This document shows positions 28,555-61,396 of a stretch of DNA of 64,000 nucleotides, one piece after another. Made by a program: the position numbers and the translations under genes. Origin of the DNA: Glandiceps talaboti (Eukaryota; Hemichordata; Enteropneusta; Spengelidae); NCBI RefSeq assembly GCF_964340395.1, contig NC_135571.1:3967953-4031952 (forward strand), given 5' to 3'. The first letter of the stretch is position 1. Every line of letters starts with the position of its first letter. Below the pieces are notes generated by a model that saw only the letters and a program-made list of their open reading frames with translations, ran no database searches and had not been told where the DNA came from.

Positions 28555-28685
28555 TTTTAAAGCTGATTTAAGAAAATAACACCACACATTAATATGGTAA
28601 TACTTACTTGTGTTATATCATATACAAATGAATTATACATAGACGTTGTCGCATTCAAAGTGTTCGTAAGTTGACAACACCTTAC

Positions 28686-33790: not shown

Positions 33791-35821
33791 CACTTCTACT
33801 ACTACTACTACTACTACTACTACTGCCACTACCACTACCACTACAACTTCTACCACCACTACCACTACTACTAATACTACTAATACTACTACCACTGTAT
33901 GAAGATTTATAGAGAAATACGTAAAATACATATTACATAAACATCACAAAGTTAAAAATGCTTGGTATGTCAACCTTCATGTTGGACACAGCTTGTGTAA
34001 ACTTAATGAATGTTCGTGAGGTATTTCTATGAACTCAGGAGCACTATATACAGTTCATGGGTCTTTAGGTTGCACTATCACCACTGTGCAGCCCTTAATT
34101 CATGATAAAACCCTACTTCCAGAGTGTAAAAATATTATTGCCTTACCATGTTTCGACACTCATAAGAATCATAACTCCAGTGGCAGAAGACACTGTCGTA
34201 AATTACAGCACTAATTGCTATCATTAGAAGTATGGTTCCACTGAATGATGCAGATATTATTGATAATACCATAGATGTTATAATCTGATGAGGAAAAAAC
34301 ATATTTGAACAAATATGATAATTATACTGGCATCGTATTGCTTGATGCTGCAGTATTTAAGGGAGACAAACTGAGTTTATACGTCTGGGGAATGACTTTG
34401 GCTGTACATGCAAATGTACTCTCTGTATACGTATACTGCTTATTGAAGCATACGTAATTAACATTTACATTGACTGATTTCAAACCTCATATAAGGTATC
34501 TTGTAAAACATTATTTCTTTATATGCATGCAAAATGTTGAGGAAATCCCTCTTCTGCAGTCAGCTGTTCTAACAATGCCAGTAGAAGACAATCATTATGG
34601 TAATTTCATAGAAGGTATTCATTATACTAAAATTGTTTAATTGGTCACTTGAGTAAATAGTTTACACAACCAACTTGTCCCACATTAAGGCAACACTGTT
34701 GAGCCATGATAGCCAAATGGTTAGCGCAGACAGCATGGAAATTGGAATCTTCAGTTTGCAGGTTTGAGCCCTGCCACATTTGTTTCTGAATGACTAAGTC
34801 CTTGGACAAGATTTGAACAACAAATGTACCTCAGTCAACCCAGCTGTGTAATTGGGGACCTGGTAGGACAGAGGTTGCATTGTGAATGCATTAATCCTAT
34901 GTGTATATAGAGGCTACACTGGGATGTATGCGCCCCAGGGAGTTGAGGAAGTTAAGGGCAGTTCTGCTGCTGTATGTCCGTCCCCAGGGGTAATAATGAT
35001 AAAAAGCACTTCGAGCGCAGAGTGGGAAAATGCTATATAAAAACCAATCAAATAGAGACAGAGAAATATAATTCGCTAAAGCACATGGAACTTGTCATGG
35101 TGGATATTTCACTCCTGCCCGACCGACTGACTGATAAACAGGCAACAACTACATGCTCATCCAACCCTAAGCATGTATGACTGAAACTTGAGAAAAGCCT
35201 TAAAAATTAGAATTAAATTTAAATTCAAAAACTTAAACTTCAAAATTAAACTATCATACTTATTTTAATGACACAATAAAAGTACTTTTCATGAAATTAC
35301 AAAGTTTTATCAAAAATACTTACATAACAATTAGTTTTCTTCACAGATGATACAACACCAAAGGATCCAGTCAAAATGAACTGTCAATTGTGAATAATGT
35401 TTGATAAGTAAATATTGCAGCCACATCAATGTATCAGTTAGACAACTGTTCAGGCTAAGGTGAAAACATAACATAACTATGACTATGAGGTTAAAGGGAC
35501 TCTCTCTGTTTATTTTCTGTAAGGACATTTTCCACCACAAGTCCCTGCCCCCTTCCCAAATCTAATCGACTTTTAGTAAAGAAACATGATATACACAAGT
35601 GAAACTCTTACCAAGACTCCACACCACAGTCCACTCCCTGCAGTAGATAGAAATGATTGAAGTCCAATCCCAGTTGATCCAAGAGTTATGGAAATTACGC
35701 CCAATATTATTTGACACATGCCAAAGGCAAATGTTGTTTTGTGAGCAAATCCCTGTCTCACCGCAGGTTTGCTACTAAACTGGTTGAAAACTGGTTGTTG
35801 CACGATTGGTTGCATCACAAC

Positions 35822-35862
<41 letters not shown>

Positions 35863-35866
35863 CCAT
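32239..35866 (-). CDS. MS4A-like four-pass membrane protein, copy 2 with shortened tail (5 exons, 257 aa)
   Basis: Coding exons, minus strand: 35866-35612, 35380-35324, 34284-34147, 32792-32555, 32324-32239. Phases match copy 1 exactly and no stop or frameshift interrupts it. Differences: 13 glutamines after Met-Glu instead of 10 after Met; the loop after TM3 is 8 codons shorter with a different sequence (AVIYDSVFCHWSYDSYECRN); and the last exon is 86 nt instead of 359, ending PPPPPTTTTRQQVTK. The same TAA stop is used as in copy 1, so a 273-nt (91-codon) net loss removed the middle of the tail, including PPPSY, without breaking frame. TM segments are nearly unchanged. Exon 2 has a weaker pyrimidine tract than copy 1 after an 11-nt loss before the acceptor. 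Probably functional at the membrane but with altered cytoplasmic contacts. Confidence 0.83.
33240..33896. repeat. (CTA)n array in intron 3 of MS4A-like gene 2
   Basis: About 655 bp of CTA triplets with periodic CATACTA, then TAGTACTA and CAACTA/CCACTA variants. The matching intron position in copy 1 (27415-27437) holds only about seven triplets. Confidence 0.95.
34700..35045 (+). mobile_element. tRNA-derived SINE, copy 1
   Basis: tRNA-like head with an A-box-like TGATAGCCAAATGGTTAGCG and a B-box-like GGTTTGAGCCC (34761). A body follows, then the tail AAGCACTTCGAGCGCAGAGT with GGGAAAATGCTATATAAA. The tail resembles the 3' end shared by many SINEs and L2-clade LINEs (GCGCTTTGAG...GCGCTATATAAA). 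It lies in intron 2 of MS4A-like gene 2 and is absent from copy 1. Confidence 0.8.
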
Positions 35867-35996
35867 TTTAAAGCTGATTACAAAAACACCACACATTTAT
35901 ATTGTAATACTTGTATTATATCAATATACAAATAAATTATACATAAATCACAGATGTTGTCACATTCAAAGTGTTTGCATGTTGACAACACCTTAC

Positions 35997-39908: not shown

Positions 39909-40173
39909 TTATCCTACGTAAACAGAAAAAAATATTACTTGTTAGCTGACAGTTTTGGTTCCTGTCAATTTTGGTTTGAGCAAACACATCTCAGTGTCCA
40001 ACCTCCAAGTCATTCATTCATATATATGTCGTTCATCGATCCATCAATACATCTATATATACATCCATCCATCATGCATGCTATTCATGATGATTTACAT
40101 CTTATATATCCCTCATCCTTCCCTACCTTGCTCACCTACCTGCAGACAGACAGACAGACAGACAGACATACAT

Positions 40174-40208
<35 letters not shown>

Positions 40209-40327
40209 TACATACATACATACATACATACATACATACATACATTTTATAATTATATACATACATACATACATACATACATACATACAGACAGACAGAC
40301 AGACAGACATACATTTTATACATACAT

Positions 40328-40358
<31 letters not shown>

Positions 40359-43300
40359 TGTGTTTGCTATTGTTGAATGTTAGAAAGCAGAGGAGTGAGT
40401 TGGATTTATTAATTAAAAGAATCTAAATGATATTAGAAACTTCTATTGGCTCACACACTTGTACTTGTAGATAAAGCAATACCCTTATACAGTATGATAT
40501 TATTTTACACCATCGATTGTGTACAAATACACTTACCACAAACATCAGAATCTTGAACAATTGATTGAGAGTTAGGTCTAAGGTCCTTCATCCATGCAAT
40601 AATATCACCGTCACCATTGTTCATACAATTACTGGCCAAGGCTTGTATTTCATCAGACGTTAACACTCGCGACCACAGGTTGAAGTAGGCAACCTCGCCT
40701 TTCCATCTATACCAATAACTACCAATTTTGCTTTGTGCCTGACCTATAGCTAAGTTTCCTCCAGCCAAGATTACGTCACCGGCAAGTAATCCAGTACCTT
40801 CAGCCACAACATCACCATCTTTGTAGGTTTTCCAGTCTCCAGCCTCAGAAGACCATGTGACACACACGTGATGCCACTTGCTGTCAATCAATCCGACATT
40901 GACATTGTTGTCTTCCATATTCAGGCTTAGTTTTAGGTTTTTCTTAAGGATCATTTCCTTTAGATTCCGAATAGAGGCATAGCTAAATATTGTCCCATAG
41001 GATGTAACGGACATATACACCCATGCACAAGCAGTAAAATGTGACATTTCAGGAATAGTTTTGGTATTAATTGCATAGTCATCTGTCAGCACCAATTTCT
41101 TGTTTGCAAGACCAGAAGATGAAATCTCTGAAAAAAATTAAACCAACCAAATGATTAAACGAAGGAAAGTTTTTTTGGATCAAAGGTGTACCGTAATAAA
41201 TATAAATTTTGTGATTTTTGTTTTCACAATCACTTGATTTCTATAATTAACGTATTTATTATGCAAACTGTATTTTTAAATGTACCTCTGTGTTATCAAA
41301 TGATAAATATTTCAACGTTAGACATCAGACCGTAGACAAAAGGAACCTGTTATGAACAGCAAAAGTAAACAATTGAATTGGATTAATAACACTTGGCTCA
41401 GTATGTATTGGAAGTACAGAGACTTGTAGTACATTCCATCATTTGATAAGAACAGTTTTATGGCCACTTTACATATTAGTTCATATTCACAAGCATACTT
41501 CTACAGGATACCAAGGAACATAGCTCTTAAAATACAGTACAATGAGGTGATGATACCCCCAATTTGAGTGAGGGTGCTGTATTTTGAGTTTCCTGTCTGC
41601 AGTCTGGAATGGCCTATTGCCCATCCAATGAAAAAATGTGTAAGAACAGCTTTTTCCAAGAAATATTTGTTGCCTGTACACAGAATTTGGGAACATGAAA
41701 ATTAATTTTAAAAAGTACACATACCACATACGTCAACGTCTATAATTCGGTCAGAAGATGGGGGATTAAAATTGACATCCCATGATAAAATATTGCCTTG
41801 GTCGTTGTCATTACAACTCTGTGTAAGGGCTGTGATTTCTGTAGACGTCAGCACGTTGTCCCACAGATTGAAGAAGGCAACATCACCAGTGATGTAAGAG
41901 GTCCTAGATCTACCCACGGAGAACTCCCCTTTACCAGGTATCATGTATCCTGTTGACAATCCGTCACCATGACCAATCACAATAGTGTCCTGATATACCT
42001 GCCATTCACCATTGGCTGAGGACCATGTGATACACACGTGATGCCATGCGCCATTTACCGGATAGCTGTTGAATCCATTGCTTTTACCATTAATTTCCAA
42101 ATACAGCTTGGCTGAACATGAAATTTTGTAACCCCCTTTGTAATATCTAAACCAGCCTCCAGTTTTAGACGTTCCTCGTAACCAGAGACAGGCAGTAAAC
42201 ACATTGATGTCAGGCATGACTTTGTTCTGAGATAGTTTATGTCGACTGAAAGTGACTCCCTTCCCTTTGATAGAAGGTGGCAAGTTACCTGTTGGAGATA
42301 TGTAAAGTATTACCACATGTGAGAAGAGTGTCTCCCATAACGTGTCACAAACAGTTTGTTAAAGTGACCATATGGATGAGGATTGGGTATTTCATTTTGG
42401 ATTTTCATTTTTTAAAACATTTTTATCATGGTTTCCTACTTGAAAAAGCAATGTGAAGCTACATATGCCAAGTCCTTGTTTGTAACTAAATAAATTGCAA
42501 AAGATTAATAAATGTGTGCGATGTTTGTTATTGTCTTATTGTATGTACAATAACAAACATTTTACACATTTTTTTTTAGCTTTTTGCAATATATTGGGTT
42601 ACAAACGCAGTCTTGGTCTATGTTGTTTCATATTGATTTTTCAAGTAGGACGCCATAATAAATTTGTTTTATAAAATTTAAAAATCACCAAATCCAAAAT
42701 AAATACCCAATCCTCAGCCATATAGCCGCCTTAACAACTTAATACCATGCTTTATAATATGTAAAATGGACTGATAAATAGATAAGTTACATCTAATTTA
42801 GGACATTTGTATGTCTTAGCATTGGAAACTGTCACTACTGAACAGCAAACGACTGGTGGGTTAGGTAGATTTTTTATTTTAGTTTATTATACATATTTTT
42901 TCTGTGCGAGTGTCAGGATTTCCATTGTTTTCCAAATGGTGTCTGTGTTATTTATTTCTTCCTATCAGATGTACATCCATTACAGATTGGAAGAACAATT
43001 TTATACTGTCTTTTTAAGTTGATGTCAGTTTCTGCATCCACTATTTTTGGCGAGAGTTCACAATTTTTGCAATTTTATTATTTGTTTCTTGAATATGTAA
43101 AAAAAAAATTTAGGTTCGACAGTGAAAAACTAGGTGGGGTCGGGTAACCGGAACCAAACTATTATTTTTTTTAGGCCTAAAGACAATATGAAACTATTGG
43201 TCAAAAAACTTTACCGCCACCACCACAGCCACAGCCACAGCCACAGCCACAACCATCACCAACCTCTGCTAATTTATCATAACCTACCACAAGCATCTGA

Positions 43301-46300
43301 CTCTTCAATAGGCATGTGCCCTGGAATTGAACTTTCCACACTCAATGTTCCACCAATCCATGACACAACATCTCCAATAGAAGACCCACAATTTGCAGGG
43401 AGTGCCGCAATTTCTTCACTGCCCATCACGTGACTCCACATGTTAAAATTTGTTATATCAATCTCTGTACCATAGCTCCAAAGAACACCAGCCTTACTCT
43501 GTCCACGTCCAATAGTTAGCAAACCTCCACTGTTTATGACATAACCAGGAGAAAGGTCAGAACCAGAGGCTAATAACACACCATCACGATATATCGTCCA
43601 CTTGCCAGATTCACTGCTCCATGTGATAGCAAAATGATGCCAATAACCATCGTTTCCTTTGATTGATAAAGATGGCCCCCGTATACCATTAATAATAACT
43701 ATCATGTCGTACATATATCTGACAGAAAACTCTTCATTCTTTGTTTGTGTTGAGTACATAAAGATACTAGTTATTTGGGTACCAGTTGTACGTATCCACA
43801 CACCAACAGTTACATCTGTCAGCTTGACTGTAAATGGCTTAGTTGACACAATTGCGACCGATCTATTGGAAGTGACCATTTTACCATCAAGGGTTGGTGG
43901 CGCGACATCTAAATAATCAAAATTATGAATCACTCTGTTACTTAATATTGACACTGTATGCTTACCAAACTGAGCATCAACCATATACACAACAAAACTA
44001 TTATGACTTTATGTGATTAAATGGATTTGATGTCATACATTGCTTGTGATGTTTTTAAAAAAAAATAATTAAGAAGGATTTTGTCAAAATGAAATGAACT
44101 GAGGTGCCACTATGCAGACATCAAATGCAGATGTCAAAACATTGCGTCCACATGTCTGCCTATTGTTGCAGTACGTCATAGGTTGTTGAGGGTCTATGAG
44201 TACGTTGATTGAAATGGTTTAATTTTTCTCATAATTTCATTCAGACTAAATGTAGCAATGAATAGAGACCTTGCTATTAAAGTTTAGCACATGTAAATTC
44301 TTATTGACTTCTTTCAGTGTTAAATGTATTTAAATCGTTTAAACGCAGTGATAATTGTGTAAAGGAAAATGGCAACCAAACATGGTCAATCTTTTCTTTT
44401 CTTTTCTTGTGTCTTGTAAATACTTTATTTTTCTCTCTGAGTAATTTGTACTTATTTTGTGTGTCATGGACTGAGGCCTTAACACCTGAGATAAACGAAC
44501 ATTAAATTCTGCGTGGTTGTATTTATTTATTTATTTATTTATTTATTAATTAATCTTTCATATACAGACGACATTTCAGTGCATTAGCACTGTTCTCCCA
44601 ATCGAACCTATTGCAAGATTACATACACAGAAAAAAACAAAAACAAGAAGGGACAAACCAGGACAAAAAGTTACAGATGCACAATGTACTTCAAAAGATG
44701 TCCACTTATATTACCAGACTACATTCTTAACATGTCTTTTAAATATCGACGAGTTCGGAGCTGATCTTATGGATAGGGGTAGATTGTTCCATAGAACAGC
44801 ACCACTGTAGTGAAATGTCCATTTCCCATATTCAGGTTTAACTGTAAGGGATGTATATGTTACCTTTACTGGTCTGTCTTGTGTTATGGAGATGAATTTG
44901 TAACAAACAGAGTGGCTCAGGGTATTCCGAAATCCGCTGTATCATGCATGATAACACAATAGTTATCAAACATGCAAAACTACTGTATATATAATACCCA
45001 TACCTTGTTGACATATGAATGGTCTTGTGTCACTGCAGTTATAGTCATGGAAAGTAGCTTCATCATTATCCCTGTATTGTGGTGAAAATTAAAATCAATA
45101 ATGCCATTAACACAGAAACTCATATTAATTATGTTTACATAACTGTGTATTATATTTCAGGTGATCATAATCTGGAATACTAAACTACATTCAAATTAAC
45201 TTCAACATTGGCTAAGCATTGATGAAATTATTGAGCAAGGCTCTGTCTTTCCAGAGTTGTGTTTTCATTTAATGCACATATCTGTACACAAATTTGAATT
45301 CTTCCTCGTTAAGGAGATATCTAATGAAGTAAACTGTGTTCTCATTCCGTAGCTCTAATTTGGTCATTTGCATAACTTGGTGGTATAAATTAATAGGAAG
45401 CTTTAAACTTCAGTTTAATAAAATTTGTACCATAAAACATCTTAAAGTGGCCATATGGATGAGGATTTATATTTAATTTGGAGTTCTTATTTATACAACA
45501 ATTTTATCATGGCTTTCTACTTGAAAAAAGAAGTCAGTGTAAAACAACATAGGCCAAGTCTGTGTCTGTATTCAATGTATTGCTATAAGAAACGAGTAAA
45601 AAAGTTTGTTATTGTTTTTACAAGTTTACACATTTAGTAATCTTTTGCAATAAGATTTATTTAGATACAATCAATGACTTGGCATAAGAGATTTTGCATT
45701 GAATTTTCAAGTAGGACACCATGATAAAATTGTTTTATGAATTAACAATCCAAAAGAAATACCCAATGTTCATCCTTATTGACACTTTAAAAGCAGTGGT
45801 TTACAACACATGAAACATGAACTAAGAACTTACATCAAATCCAAACATTCCTCACTTTGCTTTAAATTATTGGGTTGGTATTTTGACCAGTCAAAATAAA
45901 CCATCTGTTCTCCATCTACGGTTTGCCAGGTATTAGTTCCTGATGGATACCGTCTTCCATCAAATCCAACCTTCAGATTGATACCTATACTTTTCAAATA
46001 ATCTCTTAGGAAAGTGTGTGTTTCCTTGTTCAATATTTTGGCGAGAGATGCACCTCTATGTTTACAAATTTCAACAGCAGTATCTCTTGATTGCTTAATC
46101 AAAATAGGTGTATACACATAAGAATTTGGAGGTGGTCCTATAGGGTGGAGATACAAAGAGTAGTTTAGCATTCGACATAAAAGTAGCCACAAAATGACGT
46201 CATTGTATTCATATAGTATGTAAATACAGTGTCATAACAATTAGCATGATGGGAGTTTTGTCAGTGACTACTAGTCATTAAACAAGTGACAGTAAAAGGT

Positions 46301-46915
46301 AAAACATACCATTTAATTTTGATCCAAAAAGGAAGAAAAATACTTTCAAGTTGCGGACAAGGTACCGTTAATTTTTAGTATGAGAGAACTTGCAATCCAG
46401 ACTGAGCATGCTCAGATGCAAAGGACTGTGGGATTATCTGTAGTTATCGTATTGTCTAATCTGGAGCTATCAATAAAATAAACCTACTACAATGGTCAGG
46501 GTAACCATGACTAGATTATTTGTGGTTGCAAAACAATGTAACAAGACTGTTTACAATGCGGATTGATTCATATTTATCATCATATTTCCCATGATGCAAC
46601 ATACATGATATTCAAGATGGCAAGTCTGCAAGTTCCCTATTGTACAAATAGTAAAATTTAAACATACCATATCCTGTCTCCTGGCGACAGGCTGTGCTAT
46701 TACATCGGCATTGTTTACTAATACACACCTGTGGTTAATGCAAAGAAATGTTTGCATCAGTCAACTTGTGATGATGATAAAATTATGAAGGGATGTCAAG
46801 ACACATCTGTTTGGAAGAGCTTTGTAACTTGTTACAGTGATCTACTATTGTTCCACCATAGAACATTATGTCGTAATCCTCATATTCGATTTTGGCACTA
46901 CACAAATTCTTTTGA

Positions 46916-46995
<80 letters not shown>

Positions 46996-47389
46996 ACCCG
47001 ACTGACTGATTGATTACCTGACTGACTGATTGATTAATTGGTATGTTAAACCAGATACAAGGAAGAGACACAGTCTGTGGTATACACAAATATAGAATTA
47101 TCTATCTTTTGTATGAAACAATATGAAGGGATGTACATGTGTTAAACCATGTATCTGCAACAATAGCACTATGTATGCACAAATATAGTACTATCTAGGT
47201 TTGTAATAGAAATATGTTATATTAACTAAACCTTTACTAGTACTCACCACTCTTGGAAAGAATAGTTGATGTTTTGATATGCCATCATTGCATGAAAGTT
47301 AAATATGATATACCACCACCACCAACAACAACAACAACAACAACGACAACATCAACATCAACATCACCATCACCACCACCACCACCATT

Positions 47390-47421
<32 letters not shown>

Positions 47422-50400
47422 CATATTTATAACAGCATGTTATCAACAGCACAAAACAATCACAGTACTTACACTTCCAATACCACAGGTTGTCCCTTCA
47501 GTGGCTTTACCCCAAAAGACACACGAACCATCGGTCATTTCACAGTACAGTTTACATAAATCACCATCTTTAAAATTCTGAAGACAATGAAAATGAGTAA
47601 GATGCCTATCACAGCATAATCACACAAAAAAACATCAGGAAAGACAAATAATTATCTGTTCTAGAGGTCAGTATCCAACACAGAGATGGTGACTCTATTG
47701 TTTTTTATCTATTTCTCATTACCCGACCGACCCAAATTTTCAGCTCAGACATCAAAATAAATATTTTGTGGAACAGTGCCCTCTCTGGGAAGCATAAGCA
47801 AGAATCTGGACTGTTGACATCATCTACTGTTATGTCACTTGTTCATGGACAGAGCATTTTTTTCATGACACAAGTTATTCAAGTGGGGGGGGGGGGAGAA
47901 CTTGCCAATTGTGTAGAGATGCTGGGAAAGGGATTGTTACCAGGAGTCCAATAAAAAGATGATAGAGAGAAGGAAAAGGAGAGGCAAAGAAATAGCATGT
48001 GATTCTGGTAACACACAGTCACGAGGGGGTAATGAATGGGTGCTATAGCCCTAATATAGGCCAGGTAATATGTGTTTTATAATATACCTCATGCTGTGAA
48101 CTCGCGGTGGCAGACGACATCATCAGAAGCTGCCATTTTGACCTGCTGTAAACTCACGGTGGTCACGTGACCATGTAATAGTTGATGGAACTATTTCCCT
48201 AGGGAAATAGTCATTCTATTTTCCTATCACGTGACTGATTCTAGCGAATCAAGGCACAGCATTATCACTAGGTATATTATAAACTACTTTATAGATATGA
48301 TAGACATGTACAAACTCTAATTATTGGTATTTTAGGAGTTTTCATTGGATATATTGTTGGTTGTCTGATCGACGCTAGTGCAGCTTTATACGATTACCTA
48401 AAAATGGAATATTACACAACAAGTGGATTTGTTTGTTTTTTTTGTTTTTTTTTAATTATTTTTTTATTTTCCAAAAGAATATAGTAACAACAAAAAGGAA
48501 GGAAAAGAAAAGGAGAAAGGGTTACATTGCACGGTATAAATTGCTATAAAATGCTATAAAGTGATTGGAATCCTATAATGCAGAAGTATCACTCGATTCT
48601 TAGATTGTCCCACTTGTTCGAGCAAATTTCTAGCTTATTTTTCCTCTTCGCTATAAAAATCTCTGTCTCTCTAGCGATTCTGACATTTACTTTGACAAGA
48701 TTGAATGTGGATTTGTTGCATATATTTGCTAAAATAAATACAGGATTATCCCGTTATATGTCTAACCTGCACGGCCTGCGTTTTCCAACGGCATTCCCCA
48801 ATGCTTTTGCCTATATAGACTGCTCGACAATGAACATCTGGTGGGAATAATTGTCCAGCATTTACACGTTCACCTACATCATATCCTGGCCATGGCCATG
48901 ATGTTTTCTCGCTTGGTACATCTAACACACATTTTGGTGGATCACTGTAGTTGAATACATTAATACATTGGTTAATATTATTATAGACACTGCCTTAAAC
49001 TTTTGATCTTATAGATTTGGTCTACCACATTGAAGAACAATAGATTTAGGTGGCGTGTATCTTAGTAAACCGAAGGCTGGATTACCAGTGTCGTGTATAT
49101 AATAAAGTGAATAATAATGAAGTTTCTTTTATACTTGATAAAATAATTAGTGATGCAATGTTGGTCCTTGTGTGTTGAAATAGTAAAAATACTATAATCT
49201 GTCAAACAGTACCTCAAATATTCCCGGAATTCTTGCCTGTTACATTCGGTGAATTTTAACCAACCACCAGACATAAATCCGTCTTCCAAAACATTTGGAC
49301 ATTGTTCTGGATCGTGATGCAATCCAAATCTAAGACGATGAGGTAAACAAGTTAGAAAAAGTCCGCTATAACAGTGACTTGCTTTTGAAGCATGTGGAAT
49401 TGATTGAAAGATATTTTCACTTTCTTTGCATGGATTTGTTGTTTAGTAGGTAAAATCAAGTATAGTGTAACATATCATGATTTCAGCCAATACAAGTCTA
49501 GTTATAGATGGAGGAGAGATACGACTTTTGCTAGGTTTGCAGCTAAAGGTGCCTTTTAAGATGATCATCCTTGGTCAAGGTGATAACATATGCCCATTAG
49601 AAGTAAGGGTACAAAGTTGTACTAAGTCTACCAGCACCTTGAATATTGATTTGATGTACAATTTAACAGTTTGACATTGAACATGACTTGTATTAGTTTG
49701 AATTATAATTCCTTATGATGTTCAACTAAATCAAAACAGGACATTTGGTGGCTGTAATACAACTCACAAAATAACACCAGTGCGTTTGCATGACTGAAAT
49801 GAGATATGGAAAGACTTATGGATGGCAAAGATAAAATTAGTTATAAACAACAATAACACTGATACAAAAAGAATGAGTGTCTCTGATTTAGGTTCAGGCA
49901 ACGTTTTTATCAGTTTGTGTTATATCTGAGAAAGTTATAAAGTAACACTTAAACAGCTGTACTCAATCCTTACAGCATACAACATTCTATCAGTACACAG
50001 AGTTATGGGATCCCTACTCCTTTCATTACAGCTTACAACATTCTATCAGTACACAGAGTTATGGCATCCCTACTCCTTTCATTACAGCTTACAACATTCT
50101 ATCAGTACACAGAATTATGGCATACCTACTCCATTGATTACAGCATATACAACATTCTATCGGTACACAGAGTTATGGCATCCCGACCCCTTTGGTTACA
50201 GGTGTTTATGTTTTCTTTAGATACCAATATTAATAAGTATTACAGTGATATACCTATGAATGAAACCTGTCTCATTCCTGCTTACCATGACCAAGCAAAC
50301 GTACAGGTATTTTTTCGCAGGTTGTATTTCTTGTCATAAATGACTGCATCATTACTAACCACACAATATGGATATACTTACGAGTGTCCCATCTCATGTC

Positions 50401-51526
50401 CTAGACATGAAATATGTGTACTCGTAGGACATATACCAACAGATTTACAAAGCCCCTTCACGTATGCAAGTCCTCCAACACCAGGTTCAAACCATGGTTT
50501 GCTGAAACAAAGTAAAGATAATAAAAATATCAATTGACAAATATAGTCTATTTATAACGCCGACATCATTCGACATCTTAGGCACTAGTTCCCTCCAAAG
50601 ACAATGAAATTCACACATTAATTAATATTAATGTTAGTTTATAAATTCCCACTCTATGCTCAAAGCGCTTTACAATTGTTAACCCTGGCTCGGATCTATA
50701 TCGACACAACAGCCCTTTACTCTTCAACTCCCTAGGGAGCATACAATCCATTGCAGTCTTTATAGCACATAGGATTAAAGCATTCATATTGCAACATCTA
50801 TCCTACCAGGTCCCCAATTATAAGCTGGGTGGACTGAGGCACAGTCGTGGTTCAAATCTTGACCAAGGACTTTAGCCACTCAGAAATAAATGGTAGTGAT
50901 GGGGCTCGAACCTGCATCTTGCAGATTCCAAGCTGGCAACTCTAACCATTTGCCCATCATGACTCCACATGACCAGCTTGAAGGGAAGAGACACAACTGT
51001 GATTTTCAGGATGAACTCAATTGATAAGACCCCTGTATATAAACAATTACACTCTTTGGAAAGTTCAATTCAAACAATCAACACCAAGTGTGGTATCTTG
51101 GAAGGGGCCTAGGCATGATATAAATTATGGATGTGTTGCATCAATAAGCTTTATGAGACGTGCACCCTGGTATCATGAATGTATGTACCAAATTATATAG
51201 AACCTGAAGCTTGTACTCTTCATATATAGCTAGCCTAATTACTGAAAATCTGCTTATTTATCAAATCGATACTAAAAACTTGTCAAGGCGCGAAGAAACT
51301 AAGACGCGAAATGTGATAAGATGAAATTCATTAACTCACTTTGTGAAGAAGAATGCATAGTCAAAATGCAAAGGATTACTGTCATCTTCAACATTAATTA
51401 ATCTCGTCCATTCCCTGAAGTTCCTTAATCTCTGGTAGATAGAGTCAGTCATGTTTAGAGACGGTTGGCACTGAGAAACAACATAAACATGAAATCAGTG
51501 TAGATTAAGTTAGGCGCAAGGTGTGT

Positions 51527-51567
<41 letters not shown>

Positions 51568-52244
51568 CGATGAGTATCTGATCAGTGTAAACTAATTATA
51601 GATGATAGTTTGACAGTAGGGCCAACTGATTAATATTAAAACGCTTAACTAACAGGAATACATGCAAGTGAAATTTCACGTTACCCAAAATGTCAAAACT
51701 CACGAATCCTGTAAAATTACGACAATCAAGAAATGTGTCAATGAAAGCTAAATACAGTTAATATGTTTACCGTATCCTCATCGATCAAAATAAATCTAGT
51801 TAATCGAACATTCATATCAATTTCTTCTGTGCTTATATGTTTATAGGCGGTAGCAACCTGAAAAGGTATTAAAAAAACAAACATTATATTAGAGATTATA
51901 CAATGCACGTACGAGCCATTTAGAACAAAAAATATGGAATATATACGCTGGTCGTTCTACGTCACAACAACGCGCGTCTACGTCAAGACACGTCTCTACC
52001 TGACTGGTTATGGTGTGTTCGAAATACGAATTTACGATTGAAATTTATAATCTGTGGCAACCTACCAGATTCATCATTGCCAGGGTATGTGGTACAATAT
52101 TTTCTCCCAGTTCTTCAAGTGCAGCCTTATCAACAGCAACCATCATTTCGATGTATAAAGGTTGTGTCACTCTTAAGGGTTCGCTACCATCGATGACGTC
52201 ACGTCTTTTTATCTCAGCATCTGTTTATAAATTGGTCGAAAATA

Positions 52245-52294
<50 letters not shown>

Positions 52295-53064
52295 CGCTGA
52301 AATCATTTTATCAACAATGTTTTTTTGTTGTTTTTTTCAATCGTATCATTTTTTTCAATTAGTTTTACTTTTAATTGAATAACAGTACGTGTGTATAGCC
52401 CTTAGTCGCAAAGAGTCAATTAACGAAAAATGTGTTGCACTGTCTCTCAAGTTTGATCATTACGGGAAAGGTAAACACCAGATGAGAAAAGGTAAGCTGT
52501 GATATCCGTAAGGAGTTTAGCTGGTATTAATCAGATAGACTTGGGTAAGTGCTTATACTTGCCAGGGGCAATTATGGCCTTGTAATTGAGGTCATCCATG
52601 TCGTCTTCAAGAAGGATGGCGATATGTGGTTTAATGTCTTCGAGTTCCCAGTCAACACTTCTTAATGACCGCACTGTCTCCAAATGTTCGTCTTTGATTG
52701 GGTGAAGAAAAAGTGTGTAATTACCAATTAACCATCCAGTCTATAAAAAAATGGGGATATTGATTACCAAAACCGATGAAAGGAGTTCTCAAATATTAAT
52801 CTACAATTTTTTTCACTTTTAATCCATCAAATTTGTCTTTTTTGCAAAAACGATAAATCTGGGTTTTAACCACTGAGTGCTATATGTGTTGTATCACAAT
52901 GTCATTGTCGTAAGCCACAACCTCTTACAGCACTGTCAAAAATGTCAAAACGCGCCATCATTACTCATTATTTCGCAGTGTCGCGGAAGAAATAACGGCT
53001 CTGGTGTGCGACAATGCACAATGTAAAAGGCTGTTACCTATGAGGCTATCGAGTTTAAATAAAG

Positions 53065-53129
<65 letters not shown>

Positions 53130-55900
53130 GTATACACCAAACAATTCAAATTCAAATTCAGTCTAAAAAGATGTACATGGTACAACGCTTCATAAATTAT
53201 CAAAGTCAGTACTCACAACATCTCCCCCATCGCATGCTTTCAGTGCAACCAGTGTATTTTCAACACCGGTAACATAACCACTGACAAAACATGTTTTGTC
53301 GACATCCACCGGAAAAACATCCCAACGTATTCCACCATTACCACAGTATTCCAAAAACGGTGCGTTGAAAAAGTCTGGTTGGACAAAAATATGCAAAAAA
53401 ATATTGATAACCACTTAGAGAAAGATTTCTTTTAGGCCTGCTAAAGATAATTTGGTTCCGATTACCCGACCCCATCTAGTTTTCACTGGCGACCCGAAAC
53501 TTTTTACGTATTCAAGAAAATTGTGAAGTCTCGCGAAAAATAGAGGATGTGAAAACTGACATCAACTTAAAAAGACAATATAAAACTGTTCTTCCAATCT
53601 GTAATGGCTGTACATCTGATGGGAAGAAACCAATAATATAATATTGTTTTGCTAGTCGAGTGAGTGAGTGAGTGAGTGAGTGAGTGAGAGTGAGTGAGTG
53701 AGTGAGTGAGTGAGTGAGTGAGTGAGTGAGTGAGTGAGTGAGTGTGTGGGTGAGTGAGTGAGTGAGTGAGTGAGTGAGTGAGTGAGTGAGTGAGTGAGTG
53801 AGTGAGTGAGTGAGTGAGTGAGTGAGTGAGTGAGTGAATGAATGTGTGTGGGGGGGAGGGGGGTGGACGGGCGGGTGGGCGAGGGATATATAAGGGAGGG
53901 AGGGAGCGAGTATATGTCCTTGTGTCTGTAATTGTGAGAAGAGAGAGATGGAAGTGAGAAATCAATGTGAGAATATCAATTGGACGTTATAACACACACG
54001 ACTCACAAATAATATGCATGGGTATGATAAACAGAAAAGAGAGGTATATGTACAAAATATATGAAGTCCATTGTGTGCTTTATAAGAATACAGCGACTTA
54101 CGACAGGACGTAAAATGATAACTCACCTCCACTGCGTTTTAAACGGAGATTATATGTATCCCCAAATGCTTCAATCGTCATATGTGTAGTTTCATCTTCA
54201 CTCAGTTCGTCGTCTCTTTTCCATCGTTCACTTTTCTTGGGATACACCAGATCGTACTTTGCATTTCCTTATTAAATATACATACATATAAGTTAATGTA
54301 GTGAGTATATTTATACACAGAATAACACAGAGATGTCATTTTATACCAACTCAGTTTTACCAGCATTTTATATCTACCAGATTAATAACTAATACTATTT
54401 AAAACAGTTGGGCATGTGATCAATATCATTATGTATTTCTGTACAACAAAATGGGAAATTATGTAACTTCCCAACTCCAACCCATTTCTGTTACCGGGAT
54501 TCTTAACCTTAACAAAACCACTAGCATGTTACACGACACAACACAACACGATACGAGGTAACACAACACAACACGACACGACATGACTTGACACAACACC
54601 ACACAACACAAGACAACACGACAGTAAACGGAGATTATGTGTCAACAACAACACGAATTAACACAACACAAGGCAACACGGCGTAACACAACACAACACA
54701 GCACGACGTAACACAATACAATATAACAACATATTTAAAATATGAATGAACACAACACAACACAACACAGCGTAACATAACACTATATAACACAACATAA
54801 TAAAATACGACGCAACGAAACACAACACAACACAACACAACACAACACTATATAACACAATACAACACTCAATTCTAATCAAATAAGTTTGACCACTCAC
54901 TGGTATTGAAGCCACTTGCAGATGCATACACATCAGTTATATGAGCCGGGAAAATCTGCAATGTTGAAAGTCAGTGTTCAGAGTAATACTAACATTTGAA
55001 AGTGTACTTTGAGTAACAGTAACAACAAAATAAAATCTAAAGGGGGGTACTCGAATTCATGGAACTATAATGAGTAATAACGTTATTTTTCATATAGCAC
55101 TTTCCCACTCTGTGCTCTAAGCGCTTTTATTAACCAGATATAAACCTATAACCGCACAACGGCCCTTAATGAATTCTCAACTCTCCAGAGAGCATACCTA
55201 TACAATCCATCACAATCTTTATTAGCTCACAGGATTACAAAATTCATATTGCAACTTATATCCTATCGGGTTCCATGTATATAGCGGGGTTGACCAGGGG
55301 CACAGTCGTGGTTCAGATCTTGTCCAGGGACTTTAGCTATTCAGGAACAAACTGCAACAGCGTGGTTCGAACCCGCAACATAAAAATTCCAAGCCGACAA
55401 CTCTAACCAATCGGCCATCATAACTCCATCATCCGATGTACATACGCGTAAAAGAAATGGACACAGATTTCAAGTCCATCACTCTAACCATTCAAGCATC
55501 ATAAGATGTGCGTACATATATGACGTGGGCATACAAAAACACGAACTGTATACACTAATACATATAAACATGGAAGTGATTGCCGCTTGTGAAAATTGAC
55601 ATCGGCCGTGGCTTTAAAAAGAAACGTAAAACGTAAAACTTTCACTTTGAATAAAACGTCCATAAGTTCATAAGCAAAAATTACATTATTCGGTACATTG
55701 CATTTGTTCATCACCGGACGTAAATCTATTTCACATGTAAATCATATTTGAAATCGCGAACATTTACATACAGTGTAAAACCCCTGAAATAGTGTGTGTT
55801 CACAAATATTGAAACACTTTTACATTACCGGGTGTTCTTCAGGCTTGAGGTGTACAATTCTAGGAATGATGGCTAAAACAGCCAAGACAAACAGCCCCAT
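39909..55900 (-). CDS. Secreted M12B/ADAMTS-like metalloprotease with C-type lectin and three pentraxin-like domains (19 coding exons, 1236 aa)
   Basis: Exons, minus strand: 55900-55829, 54955-54901, 54267-54127, 53374-53217, 52740-52563, 52220-52066, 51857-51771, 51470-51340, 50501-50382, 49329-49213, 48944-48767, 47577-47473, 46728-46668, 46137-45834, 45071-45004, 43908-43288, 42288-41725, 41127-40537, 39913-39909. All phases join and the summed frame is open. The start has an in-frame upstream stop (55922-55924), a good Kozak context (AATATGG) and a signal peptide (MGLFVLAVLAIIPRIVH). Domains: propeptide about 25-205, basic KRR at 206-208, metalloprotease about 224-403 with zinc site H361-E362, H365, H371 and Met-turn M385, cysteine-rich ADAMTS-like region 405-519, C-type lectin 520-643, pentraxin/LamG-like 644-850, 851-1038 and 1039-1236. 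No thrombospondin repeat is seen. One intron (after 52563) uses a GC donor. Likely an extracellular protease targeted by glycan- or ligand-binding modules. A split into two genes is possible, but no internal start, stop or poly(A) site supports it. Confidence 0.82.
40143..40359. repeat. (CAGA)n / (CATA)n compound array
   Basis: Alternating CAGA and CATA tetramer blocks in the last intron of the metalloprotease-lectin gene. Confidence 0.95.
40537..41127 (-). CDS. Pentraxin/LamG-like domain 3 (exon 18)
   Basis: One phase 1-1 exon, residues 1039-1235. FTACAWVYM pairs with WHHVCVTWSS; GGNLAIGQAQS and GEVAYFNLWSRVLTSDEI follow, and it ends SDVCG. The donor at 40536 (GTAAGT) reads into the last exon at 39913, whose first two bases complete a Gly codon before TAA. 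Confidence 0.85.
41725..42288 (-). CDS. Pentraxin/LamG-like domain 2 (exon 17)
   Basis: One phase 1-1 exon, residues 851-1038. FTACLWLRG pairs with WHHVCITWSS, giving the usual pentraxin Cys pair. GKGEFSVGRSR and GDVAFFNLWDNVLTSTEI follow, and it ends VDVCG. The calcium-binding acidic cluster of classical pentraxins is not evident. Confidence 0.85.
42359..42733. mobile_element. Hairpin MITE family H, copy 3
   Basis: Starts TTAAAGTGACCATATGGATG and ends AATCCTCAGCCATATAGCC. The arms are inverted copies meeting around TTATTGTATGTACAATAACA. It lies in intron 16. Confidence 0.8.
42800..43180. mobile_element. TIR MITE family T copy, one end degraded
   Basis: The right part is intact (GGTCGGGTAACCGGAACC then TTTTTTAGGCC). 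The left terminal repeat is replaced by unrelated sequence before GGTGGGTTAGGTAGATT. It lies in intron 16. Confidence 0.75.
43213..43262. repeat. (CACAGC)n short array
   Basis: CACCACCACAGCCACAGCCA and similar, just 3' of exon 16 in intron 16. Confidence 0.85.
43288..43908 (-). CDS. Pentraxin/LamG-like domain 1 (exon 16)
   Basis: One phase 1-1 exon, residues 644-850. Hallmarks are YWHHFAITWSSESGKW, a YRDG turn, GGLLTIGRGQS and FNMWSHVMGSEEIAAL, ending SDACG. The pentraxin core disulfide is missing on both sides: Gly replaces the first Cys (VTVGVW) and Ala the second (HHFAITW). Confidence 0.8.
44519..44945 (-). mobile_element. LINE 3' fragment (CR1/Jockey-type ORF end)
   Basis: Minus-strand frame ending at TAA 44711-44713: PEYGKWTFHYSGAVLWNNLP then LSIRSAPNSSIFKRHVKN. 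This matches the reverse-transcriptase ORF end pattern (F..SGA.LWN.LP..IR.A.....FK...K). A short 3' UTR ends in (AAAT)n at 44519-44549. It is 5'-truncated, non-functional and lies in intron 15. Confidence 0.75.
45004..46137 (-). CDS. C-type lectin domain exons 14-15
   Basis: Residues 520-643, bounded by phase 1 introns. The four conserved cysteines appear in order: EICKHRGASLAKI, EECLDLM, HDYNCSD and PFICQQ. The sugar-site loop reads YQPNN, intermediate between EPN (mannose-type) and QPD (galactose-type). The usual WND strand is replaced by FHDYNC. The calcium-dependent specificity is therefore uncertain. Its internal intron is phase 2, but the outer boundaries match the neighbouring modules. 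Confidence 0.85.
45442..45790. mobile_element. Hairpin MITE family H, copy 4
   Basis: Starts TTAAAGTGGCCATATGGATG and ends, reversed, TTAAAGTGTCAATAAGGATG. The inverted arms contain GGCTTTCTACTTGAAAAA and TTTTCAAGTAGGACACCA. It lies in intron 14. Confidence 0.8.
46668..48944 (-). CDS. ADAMTS-like cysteine-rich / disintegrin-like exons 11-13
   Basis: Residues 405-519. Landmarks are CVLDVPSEK, GERVNAGQLFPPDVHCRAVY (compare G..Y..D.QC...FG), DLCKLYCEMTDGSCVFWGK, ATEGTTCGIGSVCISKQC and CRCNSTAC. The EGT.C(G)..S.C....C block is the ADAM/ADAMTS cysteine-rich signature. This region usually positions substrates. The ADAMTS thrombospondin type 1 repeat (W..W..CS..C) that would normally follow is absent; the lectin comes next. 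Confidence 0.75.
46917..47040. repeat. (TTGA)n array
   Basis: ATTGATTG tetramers with ACTGACTG variants, in intron 12. Confidence 0.95.
47314..47418. repeat. CCA / CAA / CATCA / CAT triplet arrays
   Basis: Successive short triplet arrays in intron 12. Confidence 0.9.
47580..48766. other. Intron 11 of the metalloprotease-lectin gene
   Basis: No additional exon recognised. Contains a G-run near 47885 and T-rich and A/G-rich stretches at 48430-48530. Confidence 0.5.
49213..52220 (-). CDS. Metalloprotease catalytic exons 6-10
   Basis: Residues 202-404. The domain opens with LYIEMMVAVDKAALEELG, the M12B start pattern. The active site HEMGHSFGLHHD (361-372) fits HExxHxxGxxHD, with its first five residues and half of Ser366 in exon 9 and the rest in exon 10 (phase 2 junction). 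Met-turn EDGFMSGG (381-388) follows. All three zinc ligands and the catalytic Glu are present, so it should be active. MSGGWLKFTECNRQEF resembles the ADAMTS catalytic-domain end (M.....W..CS...). Confidence 0.85.
49971..50203. repeat. 56 bp tandem repeat, 4 copies
   Basis: Four copies of a 56 bp unit beginning ACAGCTTACAACATTCTATC and including AGTACACAGAGTTATGG. Intron 9 of the metalloprotease-lectin gene. Confidence 0.9.
50638..50967 (-). mobile_element. tRNA-derived SINE, copy 2
   Basis: Minus orientation. Head GAGTCATGATGGGCAAATGG, B-box GGTTCGAGCC (50903-50912) and tail AAAGCGCTTTGAGCATAGAG. Intron 8 of the metalloprotease-lectin gene. Confidence 0.85.
51521..51564. repeat. (GT)n microsatellite
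   Basis: Short GT run in intron 7. Confidence 0.95.
52251..52292. repeat. (AT)n microsatellite
   Basis: AT run 30 bp upstream (transcript sense) of the exon 6 acceptor. Confidence 0.95.
52563..54955 (-). CDS. Propeptide-encoding exons 2-5 of the metalloprotease-lectin gene
   Basis: Residues 25-201. Recognisable reprolysin (M12B) propeptide landmarks are YDLVYPKK near the start, HMTIEAFGDTYNLRLKRS (the AFG..F.L.L strand), then KTCFVSGYVTGVENTLVALK with ACDGG (the C.Y.G.V....S.VALS.CDG motif) and TGWLIGNYTLFLHPI. The exon 5 donor is CCTG|GCAAGT, a GC-AG intron with an otherwise strong consensus. The prodomain normally keeps such proteases latent until processing. Confidence 0.8.
53066..53129. 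repeat. (ATT)n microsatellite
   Basis: ATT triplets in intron 4. Confidence 0.95.
53430..53645. mobile_element. TIR MITE family T copy, truncated
   Basis: Starts TTTTAGGCCTGCTAAAGATA then TTTGGTTCCGATTACCCGAC and continues to CTGTACATCTGATGGGAAGA. The remaining part is missing where the GTGA array begins. Intron 3. Confidence 0.75.
53656..53840. repeat. (GTGA)n array
   Basis: About 185 bp of GAGT tetramers with rare interruptions, in intron 3. Confidence 0.95.
54529..54866. repeat. Degenerate AACAC pentanucleotide array
   Basis: ACACA/AACAC pentamers with ACGAC, TATAA and GTAAC variants, in intron 2. It is the reverse-strand counterpart of the TTGTG arrays at 5.2 and 20.7 kb. Confidence 0.9.
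55084..55428 (-). mobile_element. tRNA-derived SINE, copy 3
   Basis: Minus orientation. Head GAGTTATGATGGCCGATTGG, B-box GGGTTCGAACC (55364-55374) and tail AAGCGCTTAGAGCACAGAGT. Intron 1. A second degenerate tRNA-like piece follows at 55450-55500. Confidence 0.85.
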
Positions 55901-57967: not shown

Positions 57968-58642
57968 CTATTTAATTTTTAGCGATTTTCCGTTCGTAAC
58001 AAATAATTCACCAGTATGAGTTCTCATATGGCTGACCATGTCTCCTTTCGTACGAAAGGGTTTTCCACAAACGTCACATTTATATGGCTTCTCACCAGTA
58101 TGGATTCTCATATGGCACACCATATTACCTTGGTCAGAGAATGTCTTTCCACATACATCGCATTTGTATGGCTTCTCACCAGTATGAATTCTCGCATGTT
58201 CGTTCACTTGTCCTTTCTGAGTGAAAGTCTTTCCACACACGTCACATTTGTATGGCTTCTCACCAGTGTGGATTCTTTCATGTCTGACCATGTTTAGTTT
58301 TACACTGAAAGTTTTTCCACAAACGTCACATTTGTATGGCTTCTCACCAGTATGGATTCTTCTATGTATAACCATGTTGTGTTTTAGATTTAACGTTTTT
58401 CCACAAACGTCACATTGATATGGCTTGTCACCAGTATGTATTCTCGCATGCCTGACCAAGGTCCACTTTCGTCCGAAAGTCTTTCCACATACATCACATC
58501 TGTATGGCTTTTCACCAGTATGAATTCTCATATGCGCAACCATTATTTCTTTCTTCATGAATATCTTTCCACACACCCCACATTTATACGATTTGTCACT
58601 GGAGTTAAAACTTATCAGCGAATGAATGTCCAGTCCTTCCAT
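57968..58642 (-). CDS. C2H2 zinc-finger protein, copy A (7 fingers, 224 aa)
   Basis: Single open frame with an ideal start context (ACCATGG). After a 19-residue leader come seven consecutive C2H2 fingers joined by TGEKPY or TGDKPY linkers, the arrangement of DNA-binding Krueppel-type proteins. Finger 3 has Leu instead of Phe (CGKTLNLKH), and several fingers have Met at helix position 4. Helix residues -1/2/3/6 by finger: K/E/I/A, R/W/T/R, L/H/N/I, V/L/N/R, Q/G/Q/E, D/G/N/C, T/G/D/S. No KRAB, BTB or other effector domain is present. It ends with a short unique tail (GELFVTNGKSLKIK). Probably a nuclear DNA-binding protein; target unknown. Confidence 0.85.
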   Translation of the reverse strand: MEGLDIHSLISFNSSDKSYKCGVCGKIFMKKEIMVAHMRIHTGEKPYRCDVCGKTFGRKWTLVRHARIHTGDKPYQCDVCGKTLNLKHNMVIHRRIHTGEKPYKCDVCGKTFSVKLNMVRHERIHTGEKPYKCDVCGKTFTQKGQVNEHARIHTGEKPYKCDVCGKTFSDQGNMVCHMRIHTGEKPYKCDVCGKPFRTKGDMVSHMRTHTGELFVTNGKSLKIK

Positions 58643-59556
58643 GGTTAATGTGGTATATAAATTCGTGCTCTATGTATTTTAACTGCAATAGATAATATTA
58701 AGTTATTACAAATACTGGTTAAACTTGTTATATATAACGATGTTGTCATCATTTTTTATACTCTACGTACGTAATGGAATGTCTGTGGTAACGTCACGTG
58801 TCTATTCACATTGTATGCACATATGGGACGTTTTTATTCATATGTGACATTTATTCGTATTGTATGCAAATAATTCTCGCATGTTCGTTCACTTGTCCTT
58901 TCTGAGTGAAAGTCTTTCCACACACGTCACATTTGTATGGCTTCTCACCAGTGTGGATTCTTTCATGTCTGACCATGTTTAGTTTTACACTGAAAGTTTT
59001 TCCACAAACGTCACATTTGTATGGCTTCTCACCAGTATGGATTCTTCTATGTATAACCATGTTGTGTTTTAGATTTAACGTTTTTCCACAAACGTCACAT
59101 TGATATGGCTTGTCACCAGTATGTATTCTCGCATGCCTGACCAAGGTCCACTTTCGTCCGAAAGTCTTTCCACATACATCACATCTGTATGGCTTTTCAC
59201 CAGTATGAATTCTCATATGCGCAACCATTATTTCTTTCTTCATGAATATCTTTCCACACACCCCACATTTATACGATTTGTCACTGGAGTTAAAACTTAT
59301 CAGCGAATGAATGTCCAGTCCTTCCATGGTTAATGTGGTATATAAATTCGTGCTCTATGTATTTTAACTGCAATAGATAATATTAAGTTATTACAAATAC
59401 TGGTTAAACTTGTTATATATAACGATGTTGTCATCATTTTTTATACTCTACGTACGTAATGGAATGTCTGTGGTAACGTCACGTGTCTATTCACATTGTA
59501 TGCACATATGGGACGTTTTTATTCATATGTGACATTTATTCGTATTGTATGCAAAT
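58187..59556. repeat. 685 bp direct tandem duplication
   Basis: 58187-58871 and 58872-59556 are direct repeats, identical as far as I can read them. The joint lies in AATT, which is also present at the far end (59557). The unit covers the 5' part of zinc-finger copy A plus its upstream region. Confidence 0.9.
58851..59327 (-). pseudogene. Truncated zinc-finger copy B (4 fingers and part of a fifth)
   Basis: Identical to copy A from Met1 to HARI in finger 5, then ICIQYE and a stop contributed by the duplicated upstream sequence. It keeps the leader, start context and its own copy of the promoter region, so it could be transcribed. It lacks fingers 6-7 and breaks finger 5 before the last His. 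It arose from the 685 bp tandem duplication. Called a pseudogene, though a four-finger product is possible. Confidence 0.7.
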
Positions 59557-60471
59557 AATTTTTCCCAATGTGAAGATCAATGGGAGGGAGATAGTTAAGA
59601 TTCACATTTACTTCGGTTTTAAGGCGTTCCTTAAATATCCTTAATATCCAACCTGCTAGTAATATTCAATCATTTTATATGAAAACAGGAGATATATTAG
59701 GAGAACAACCTGGATGAGTACAGAAGTCATTCAAGTCGGTAAATTGATGACGTTTTGGTCGCCTCCATCTAACGGTACGTAAAATGTTTCAGTTGTTATC
59801 GAGTGTTTTCCGTTCCAATTTCTTTGTATGAAGTATGAAGAGTCCTGGGAATTTGTTGTTCCATTCTATGTAAAGGTGATTATCACGATGTTCACGCCAA
59901 CTACCGGTCAACAGACACTTAAATAATGACAAAACAGCGTTGTTTGAAGGTTGATACAGGAGCCGGCAAAACATAGTTATTTACCAAAAGTAGGGAAAAG
60001 GCAACATCGCAAAGACGTCGGTGAGAGCGGAACGACACCCGTATCTTACCGTCTACAAACTATAAAGCTTGAAACAAAGACACGCTGGAAATGATAACAG
60101 AAAACAACGCATATCATAATGGTGAGAAGGACAAATAGGTCTACTGTAAATTCAATCACGGGATTTACCATACAATAAAATATCTACATTTGTCAATCTC
60201 GCGAACCACTGGTAATGTTTGGTTAGCAAATTACTTCCATGGTTAGTGTCGGTGATGAAGACGATATTGGTAGTGGTGACGGTGATGAAGGTGGTGGTGG
60301 TGGTGGTTTTGGTTTGTGAAATAGTGTTGGTTGTCATAATGATGGTTGATAGTGGTGGTGGTCGTAGTGGCGGTGTAAGTAGTGGGTGACGGATCTTTTC
60401 GTCCCAATTTCAACTCGTCCGATTCGCATTGCCCCATTTTCAACTCATCTTAATTTCACCTTACCATAAAC
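59557..60471. other. Intergenic with GGT tract
   Basis: Diverged relative of the flank at 56-57 kb, with a GGTGGT tract at 60262-60390. A short sequence near 60398-60425 (CCCAATTTCAACTCGTCCGA) recurs inverted at 62078-62100. Confidence 0.45.
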
Positions 60472-61233: not shown

Positions 61234-61396
61234 GGTTAATGTGGTATATAAATTCGTGCTCTATGTATTTTAACTGCAATAGATAATATTAAGTTATTAC
61301 AAATACTGGTTAAACTTGTTATATATAACGATGTTGTCATCATTTTTTATACTCTACGTACGTAATGGAATGTCTGTGGTAACGTCACGTGTCTAT

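Follow-up and report, generated by a model that had tools for sequence, protein, structure and literature searches.

A single acorn-worm gene predicted to join an ADAMTS-like metalloprotease core to a C-type lectin and three pentraxin domains

Does one gene of the acorn worm Glandiceps talaboti encode an extracellular metalloprotease with a C-type lectin and three pentraxin-like domains in its tail, and what would such a tail do for the enzyme? The question arose from an initial annotation of a 64,000-nucleotide stretch of the genome (the window; C26:3967953-4031952 in the species' own assembly), which described an architecture without known counterpart and proposed a protease steered to glycans or microbes by its recognition modules.

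The 19 minus-strand exons of that annotation (55900-39909) were rebuilt from the raw sequence and joined into one frame of 1236 residues with no internal stop, starting at an ATG at 55900 and ending in a TAA at 39911-39909 (Table 1). All acceptors were AG and all donors were GT with the sole exception of exon 5, where intron 5 opens with GC at the donor at 52563. The encoded order was signal peptide, M12B propeptide, Reprolysin domain, ADAMTS-like cysteine-rich block, C-type lectin and three pentraxins, and the chain terminated directly behind the last pentraxin domain. The signal peptide that had been claimed agreed with the hydropathy of exon 1. Phase 1 was found at both ends of the lectin unit (exons 14-15) and at both ends of every pentraxin exon.

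Table 1. Coding exons of the protease-lectin-pentraxin gene and repeated small frames in the window, with the basis of each assignment (P. flava, Ptychodera flava)
Feature	Position in window	Strand	Basis
Exon 1: start codon and signal peptide	55829..55900	-	Best 9-residue hydropathy 3.49 after start Met
Exon 2: propeptide	54901..54955	-	Rebuilt gene model
Exon 3: M12B propeptide	54127..54267	-	Weak Pep_M12B_propep and P. flava protein match
Exon 4: M12B propeptide	53217..53374	-	Gene model, Pfam, P. flava match
Exon 5: propeptide end, GC donor	52563..52740	-	Gene model, P. flava match
Exon 6: Reprolysin catalytic domain start	52066..52220	-	Gene model, Pfam, P. flava match
Exon 7: catalytic domain	51771..51857	-	Gene model, P. 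flava match
Exon 8: catalytic domain	51340..51470	-	Gene model, P. flava match
Exon 9: catalytic domain, HEMGHS at its end (50398-50382)	50382..50501	-	Gene model, P. flava match
Exon 10: FGLHHD (from 49329) and Met-turn FMSGG	49213..49329	-	Gene model, P. flava match
Exon 11: catalytic domain end and ADAMTS-like cysteine-rich block	48767..48944	-	Gene model, Pfam, P. flava match
Exon 12: cysteine-rich block	47473..47577	-	Gene model, Pfam, P. flava match
Exon 13: cysteine-rich block end	46668..46728	-	Gene model, alignment to P. flava
Exon 14: C-type lectin domain part 1, phase 1 in	45834..46137	-	Gene model, Pfam
Exon 15: C-type lectin domain part 2, phase 1 out	45004..45071	-	Gene model, Pfam
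Exon 16: pentraxin domain 1, phase 1-1, Cys of H-x-C lost	43288..43908	-	Pfam, alignment
Exon 17: pentraxin domain 2, phase 1-1, calcium loop shortened	41725..42288	-	Pfam, alignment
Exon 18: pentraxin domain 3, phase 1-1	40537..41127	-	Pfam, alignment
Exon 19 coding part: last codon completed, then TAA	39909..39913	-	Gene model
Repeated small frames	26471-26800 and 32460-32792; 28237-28617 and 35573-35896	-	

Two other features of the window were observed on the minus strand. At 57968-61260, C2H2 zinc-finger frames of 233, 167 and 262 residues follow one another in tandem; the three are similar and have identical first residues, and the Pfam scan covered the third alone. Small open frames between 25979 and 36000 were repeated in two sets, resembling a duplicated gene. 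Of the five small frames tested there, one had a TetR_C_1 match under the cut-off and the other four gave nothing in Pfam at E 0.01.

Pfam placed the Reprolysin domain at residues 224-415 (E 6.6e-12). The zinc site HEMGHSFGLHHD was found intact at residues 361-372, as first claimed, interrupted by the exon 9/10 junction and followed by the Met-turn FMSGG, whose position was set by alignment to ADAMTS13. The M12B propeptide (residues 54-124; 17.1 bits) and the cysteine-rich block (ADAMTS_CR_2, residues 435-506; 20.2 bits) named in the initial annotation were recognisable, but both scored under the curated Pfam cut-offs of 23.7 and 27.3 bits, respectively. By sequence, the nearest solved proteases were ADAMTS-13, -4 and -5, and the ADAMTS13 match extended through the cysteine-rich block. 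A Foldseek search with a low-confidence model returned ADAMTS-4, -5 and -1; the structure model of a shorter G. talaboti protein (P0009, see below) had a pLDDT of 48.8, with values of ~70 in a large part of the catalytic domain. Fold searches with low-confidence models, both for the protease and for pentraxin 3, matched the sequence results and contribute little more.

The window protein is like ADAMTS-4, -5, -1 and -13 in its Reprolysin domain with HExxHxxGxxHD and its weak propeptide and cysteine-rich matches. It is unlike them in what follows, which in ADAMTS is a thrombospondin type-1 repeat and spacer and here is a lectin and pentraxins (with kringles in sister genes). Neither the thrombospondin type-1 repeat (PF00090) nor the spacer domain (PF05986) was matched in the window protein with Pfam, and Disintegrin and Astacin gave no match at E <= 0.1. 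When three proteins that carry thrombospondin repeats (P0003, P0004 and P0005) were compared with the window by tblastn, nothing convincing appeared beyond the protease exons. Hidden kringle or thrombospondin exons were sought in the same way with P0001-P0005, P0007 and P0009, and matches outside the known exons had E values of ~1 or worse. Since ADAMTS proteins are distinguished by their thrombospondin repeats in the part of PMC10381214 that describes them, the window protein was ruled out as an ADAMTS; its core is ADAMTS-like.

The same order of domains occurred in a second acorn worm. In the first protein search, an uncharacterized protein of Ptychodera flava (P0001) was the only match at E <= 0.001 among the best 7997 candidates. 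Fourteen of the 19 window exons matched P0001 in order at E < 1e-5 (exons 3-12, 14, 16, 17 and 18), an exon-by-exon agreement that is beyond chance on these alignments; exon 15 matched at E 6.6 only, and exons 1, 2, 13 and 19 were without a match in this search of the window. A second P. flava protein, P0002, had the same plan as P0001 and a clean start. Residues 1-176 of P0001 precede an apparent signal peptide and are probably a false fusion in the publicly deposited model. Identity to the window protein, counted as far as the lectin domain reaches, was 50 and 51% for the two proteins, and both carried the propeptide, protease, cysteine-rich block, lectin and pentraxins in the same order. 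They differed from it in having two kringles between the lectin and the pentraxins, two pentraxins rather than three and a His at the Met-turn.

The remaining matches of three protein searches were ADAMTS-type or unnamed proteins with 21-29% identity. Among the matches listed, the same order was not found outside hemichordates and no Saccoglossus protein was present; this kind of search needs shared exact words and a similar length, so that absence from it is weak evidence, and it is on such weak evidence that the family appears confined so far to acorn worms among the hemichordates. The architecture is not unique to the window gene: two P. flava proteins in public databases and paralogs in the worm's own genome follow the same plan and have kringles in addition.

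Those paralogs were found by searching the own assembly (590 Mb in 47 contigs), and their number may be low and is to be read as a lower bound. The tail of the window gene, on C26, consists of a lectin and three pentraxins. On C4, protease exons at 10762679-10775529 are followed by a tail that runs to a stop at ~10787365 in the order lectin-K-K-P-P-P-K-P-K-P (four kringles, K, and five pentraxins, P). Splicing the C4 tail at GT-AG sites from exon 13 to this stop gave 1472 residues in a single open frame, in which the four kringles and the four internal pentraxins are bounded by phase 1-1 splice sites. On C13, the protease exons are followed by one kringle and one pentraxin with a stop at its end. 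A lectin was not observed in this copy but may be hidden, as part of that stretch reads N. The C17 copy had a lectin domain in two parts; over ~28 kb downstream its strand showed neither pentraxin nor kringle, and two kringle matches lay on the opposite strand. A fifth locus, C9:18340190-18343930, retained decayed propeptide, cysteine-rich, lectin and pentraxin fragments in a window-like order; it was closest to the window gene and is probably a pseudogene. The composition of the tail thus varies from copy to copy within one genome. In the protease tree, the C4 copy paired with the G. talaboti protein P0009 and the two P. flava proteins paired with each other, and no order was resolved among C13, C17, C26 and these two pairs.

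The existence of P0009 bears on whether the protease is joined to its tail at all. This G. talaboti gene model has only 513 residues and terminates at the end of exon 12, as would be expected if the protease and the lectin-pentraxin part were two adjacent genes that manual and automatic prediction had both joined in error; gene-model errors are described as a source of false novel architectures in the relevant part of PMC4967905. P0009 matched the C4 locus in 12 pieces at 89-100% identity per piece (73 to 96% in another match set, in which some pieces included intron ends). When C4 exon 12 was read past its GT donor, the exact P0009 ending KVLV appeared, followed by a stop; when it was spliced at the same donor, 1472 further residues opened in frame. 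Because the unspliced exon reproduces the ending and the spliced one opens a long frame, the P0009 terminus is most likely an intron read-through in the gene model. Direct scanning covered potential starts immediately upstream of exons 11-18 and potential ends by read-through after exons 12, 13, 15 and 18; no start immediately before any of exons 13-18, which include the lectin and pentraxin exons, was signal-peptide-like. The phase 1-1 boundaries of the tail modules in the window gene and on C4 are also in keeping with the join. The same join also occurred in both P. flava models and at the C4 locus, and as the domain order recurs in these relatives, a mis-join of protease and tail is very unlikely, leaving the two-gene explanation highly improbable. 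By these comparisons, the window gene is real and is one gene of a small conserved acorn-worm family.

Both elements of the zinc site, HExxH and a GxxH with Asp or Glu as the next residue, were present in all seven copies compared (window, P0001, P0002, P0009, C4, C13 and C17). At the Met-turn, Met was found in the window protein, P0009, C4 and C17, and was swapped for His in P0001 and P0002 and for Leu in C13 while the zinc ligands stayed. The Met-turn is named as a hallmark of metzincins in the passage of PMC4885070 on this group, and since it is not constant here, some family members may be weak or unusual enzymes.

The lectin domain of the window protein, claimed to hold four cysteines, was recovered by Pfam (Lectin_C, residues 535-642, E 2.6e-12) with C544, C617, C633 and C641 in place. 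Sugar-binding C-type lectins carry the calcium-site motifs EPN or QPD and WND, which are not present in every C-type lectin. EPN was found in four of the five family lectin domains, the window having QPN instead. The Asn of WND was missing in all five, which read FHD (window), FSD, FSD, FSD and FAD. The calcium site, as read from these motifs, is degenerate in every copy; residual sugar binding is possible because EPN persists in four of them.

Three stretches of the window protein matched the Pfam family Pentaxin (E 8.7e-37), and each exon alone exceeded the 25-bit cut-off (63.6, 41.8 and 45.8 bits), in agreement with the three pentraxin-like domains first described. NPTX1 and NPTX2 were the nearest solved relatives, by sequence for all three pentraxin exons and by Foldseek for exon 18. 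The low-confidence model of pentraxin 3 (pLDDT 50.7) also matched the laminin-G/pentraxin-like region of PAPP-A, a member of another protease family with another module order and no known C-type lectin. The pentraxin signature pattern is H-x-C-x-[ST]-W-x-[ST], and the calcium site of pentraxins includes a Glu-Gln-Asp stretch with the motif [ED]QD. The signature was kept in two of the three window pentraxins, domain 1 reading HFAITWSS. The motif [ED]QD was kept in none of the three and in none of 13 pentraxin domains family-wide (three from the window, four from P. flava, five from C4 and one from C13). GQEQD was present in the neuronal-pentraxin and Limulus chains aligned to a window pentraxin exon; NPTX1 and NPTX2 differ from the window pentraxins in keeping it and in having no protease part.

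Two groups of domains were resolved in the pentraxin tree. The PTX1 group joined the first pentraxins of the window, C4 and both P. flava proteins with the C13 pentraxin (support 100/98), and its members lack the Cys of H-x-C. A second group, PTX2, joined the second window pentraxin, C4 pentraxins 2-5 and the second pentraxins of the two P. flava proteins (99/96); its seven domains retained this Cys, and the calcium loop was shortened in all seven. Placement of window pentraxin 3 was weak (78/74). As the same losses occur in two hemichordate families, the comparison suggests that they are old.

The genome contains at least 150 pentraxin matches (150 scored of 223 candidates), many in tandem arrays. 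Large arrays were observed at C4:4167964-4194070 (L001-L008) and C26:2318875-2419310, the former with a repeat every ~1.1 kb at ~98% identity. Control domains outside the family were drawn from the 150 scored matches, including sampled rows L009-L028 and L065-L084, and 19 of 42 kept [ED]QD. The first sample, which leaned to high-scoring rows and from which six near-identical C4 array repeats (L002-L004 and L006-L008) were excluded before counting, kept the motif in 18 of 22 domains, and the second, of weaker-scoring rows with many on C26, in only 1 of 20. Pentraxin domains without [ED]QD were thus many in the genome, above all among the weaker-scoring ones of C26. A contrast in motif loss between the family and its genomic siblings, as drawn from the high-score-biased sample, was dropped in view of the second. 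The loss is therefore not peculiar to the protease family and says little about a new role.

With the calcium motif missing in 13 of 13 pentraxins and the WND Asn in five of five lectins, classical calcium-dependent recognition is unlikely for the family pentraxins and doubtful for the lectin domain. The steering proposed in the initial annotation, as far as it would depend on recognition of this kind, was not supported by the comparison; glycans or microbes may still be bound in other ways.

Precedents for the individual parts exist in other systems. RVV-X, the snake factor X activator, is described as an M12B protease in which lectin-like chains act as a distant exosite (PMC4885070), and is like the window protein in combining an M12B protease with C-type-lectin-like domains. 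It is unlike it in having these lectin-like parts on light chains of their own, one of them disulfide-linked, and the account of RVV-X in that source mentions no pentraxin. Lectin-like parts that form separate subunits, the trait of P-IIId snake venom metalloproteinases, were not found here, as the window gene is a single reading frame. For astacins, which are also metzincins, the legend of Figure 1 of PMC9848320 names C-type lectin, kringle and pentraxin among the accessory domains, which gives protease fusions with such modules a precedent in another protease family; astacins differ from the window protein in catalytic family. A secreted zinc protease followed by a variable series of lectin, kringle and pentraxin modules was not found described in the open-licence literature, in titles and abstract openings among the matches listed, and a term search of the main text of the hemichordate genome paper PMC11175523 returned 0 occurrences of pentraxin, metalloprotease, lectin and kringle.

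The explanation that we consider best, at a probability of roughly 57%, is that the gene product is secreted as the zymogen of an M12B zinc protease with an ADAMTS-like core, in which a tail of class 1-1 exon modules (lectin and pentraxins, with kringles in sister genes) replaces the thrombospondin repeats and spacer and supplies substrate-choosing exosites. After removal of the propeptide, the protease would cleave an extracellular protein, and the tail would act as an exosite array or scaffold that selects and holds this substrate. The contacts that it uses would lie outside the classical calcium site of pentraxins; the [ED]QD motif of that site is absent from all 13 family domains compared. 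Shuffling and duplication of the 1-1 exon modules may then direct one enzyme core to different targets in different genes. We infer the propeptide activation, the substrate choice and the function of the protein; by analogy, RVV-X would be the nearest mechanistic precedent for a tail exosite (PMC4885070).

The differing tails of the paralogs and the large, often tandem pentraxin supply of the genome would also suit a protease of innate defence, whose lectin and pentraxins bind microbial glycans and bring the enzyme to microbes or to a humoral cascade. Many members of the C-type lectin and pentraxin families are pattern-recognition proteins, EPN is retained in most family lectins, and many genomic pentraxins also lack [ED]QD, so that its loss need not end a recognition role. 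We nevertheless regard this explanation as rather unlikely: it has to accommodate the same complete loss of [ED]QD and of the WND Asn, together with the shortened loop of the PTX2-type domains, and matrix proteins such as Polydom carry pentraxin modules too, according to the part of PMC12549020 that concerns them.

Retention of fold residues alongside loss of ligand-site residues could also mean that the pentraxins chiefly oligomerise, as pentraxin domains often do, or form a rigid spacer in an enzyme of matrix or mucus, with no part in substrate choice. Three or more pentraxins per chain would make an unusual oligomer geometry, and this reading seems less likely again than the defensive one.

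A broader picture may be drawn, tentative and on balance rather unlikely, in which acorn worms combine a fixed protease core with an exchangeable, shuffled tail of lectin, kringle and pentraxin modules, each paralog being differently aimed and the classical calcium site going unused. Were it true, an invertebrate deuterostome whose genome has a very large supply of pentraxin exons would possess a diverse set of modular proteases, serving in defence or on surfaces covered by mucus. The family presents an M12B protease with a lectin, kringle and pentraxin tail in place of the ADAMTS-type one, in several tail-variant copies in one genome, and because the same catalytic core is followed by different strings of modules, exon shuffling of protease targeting would become directly testable.
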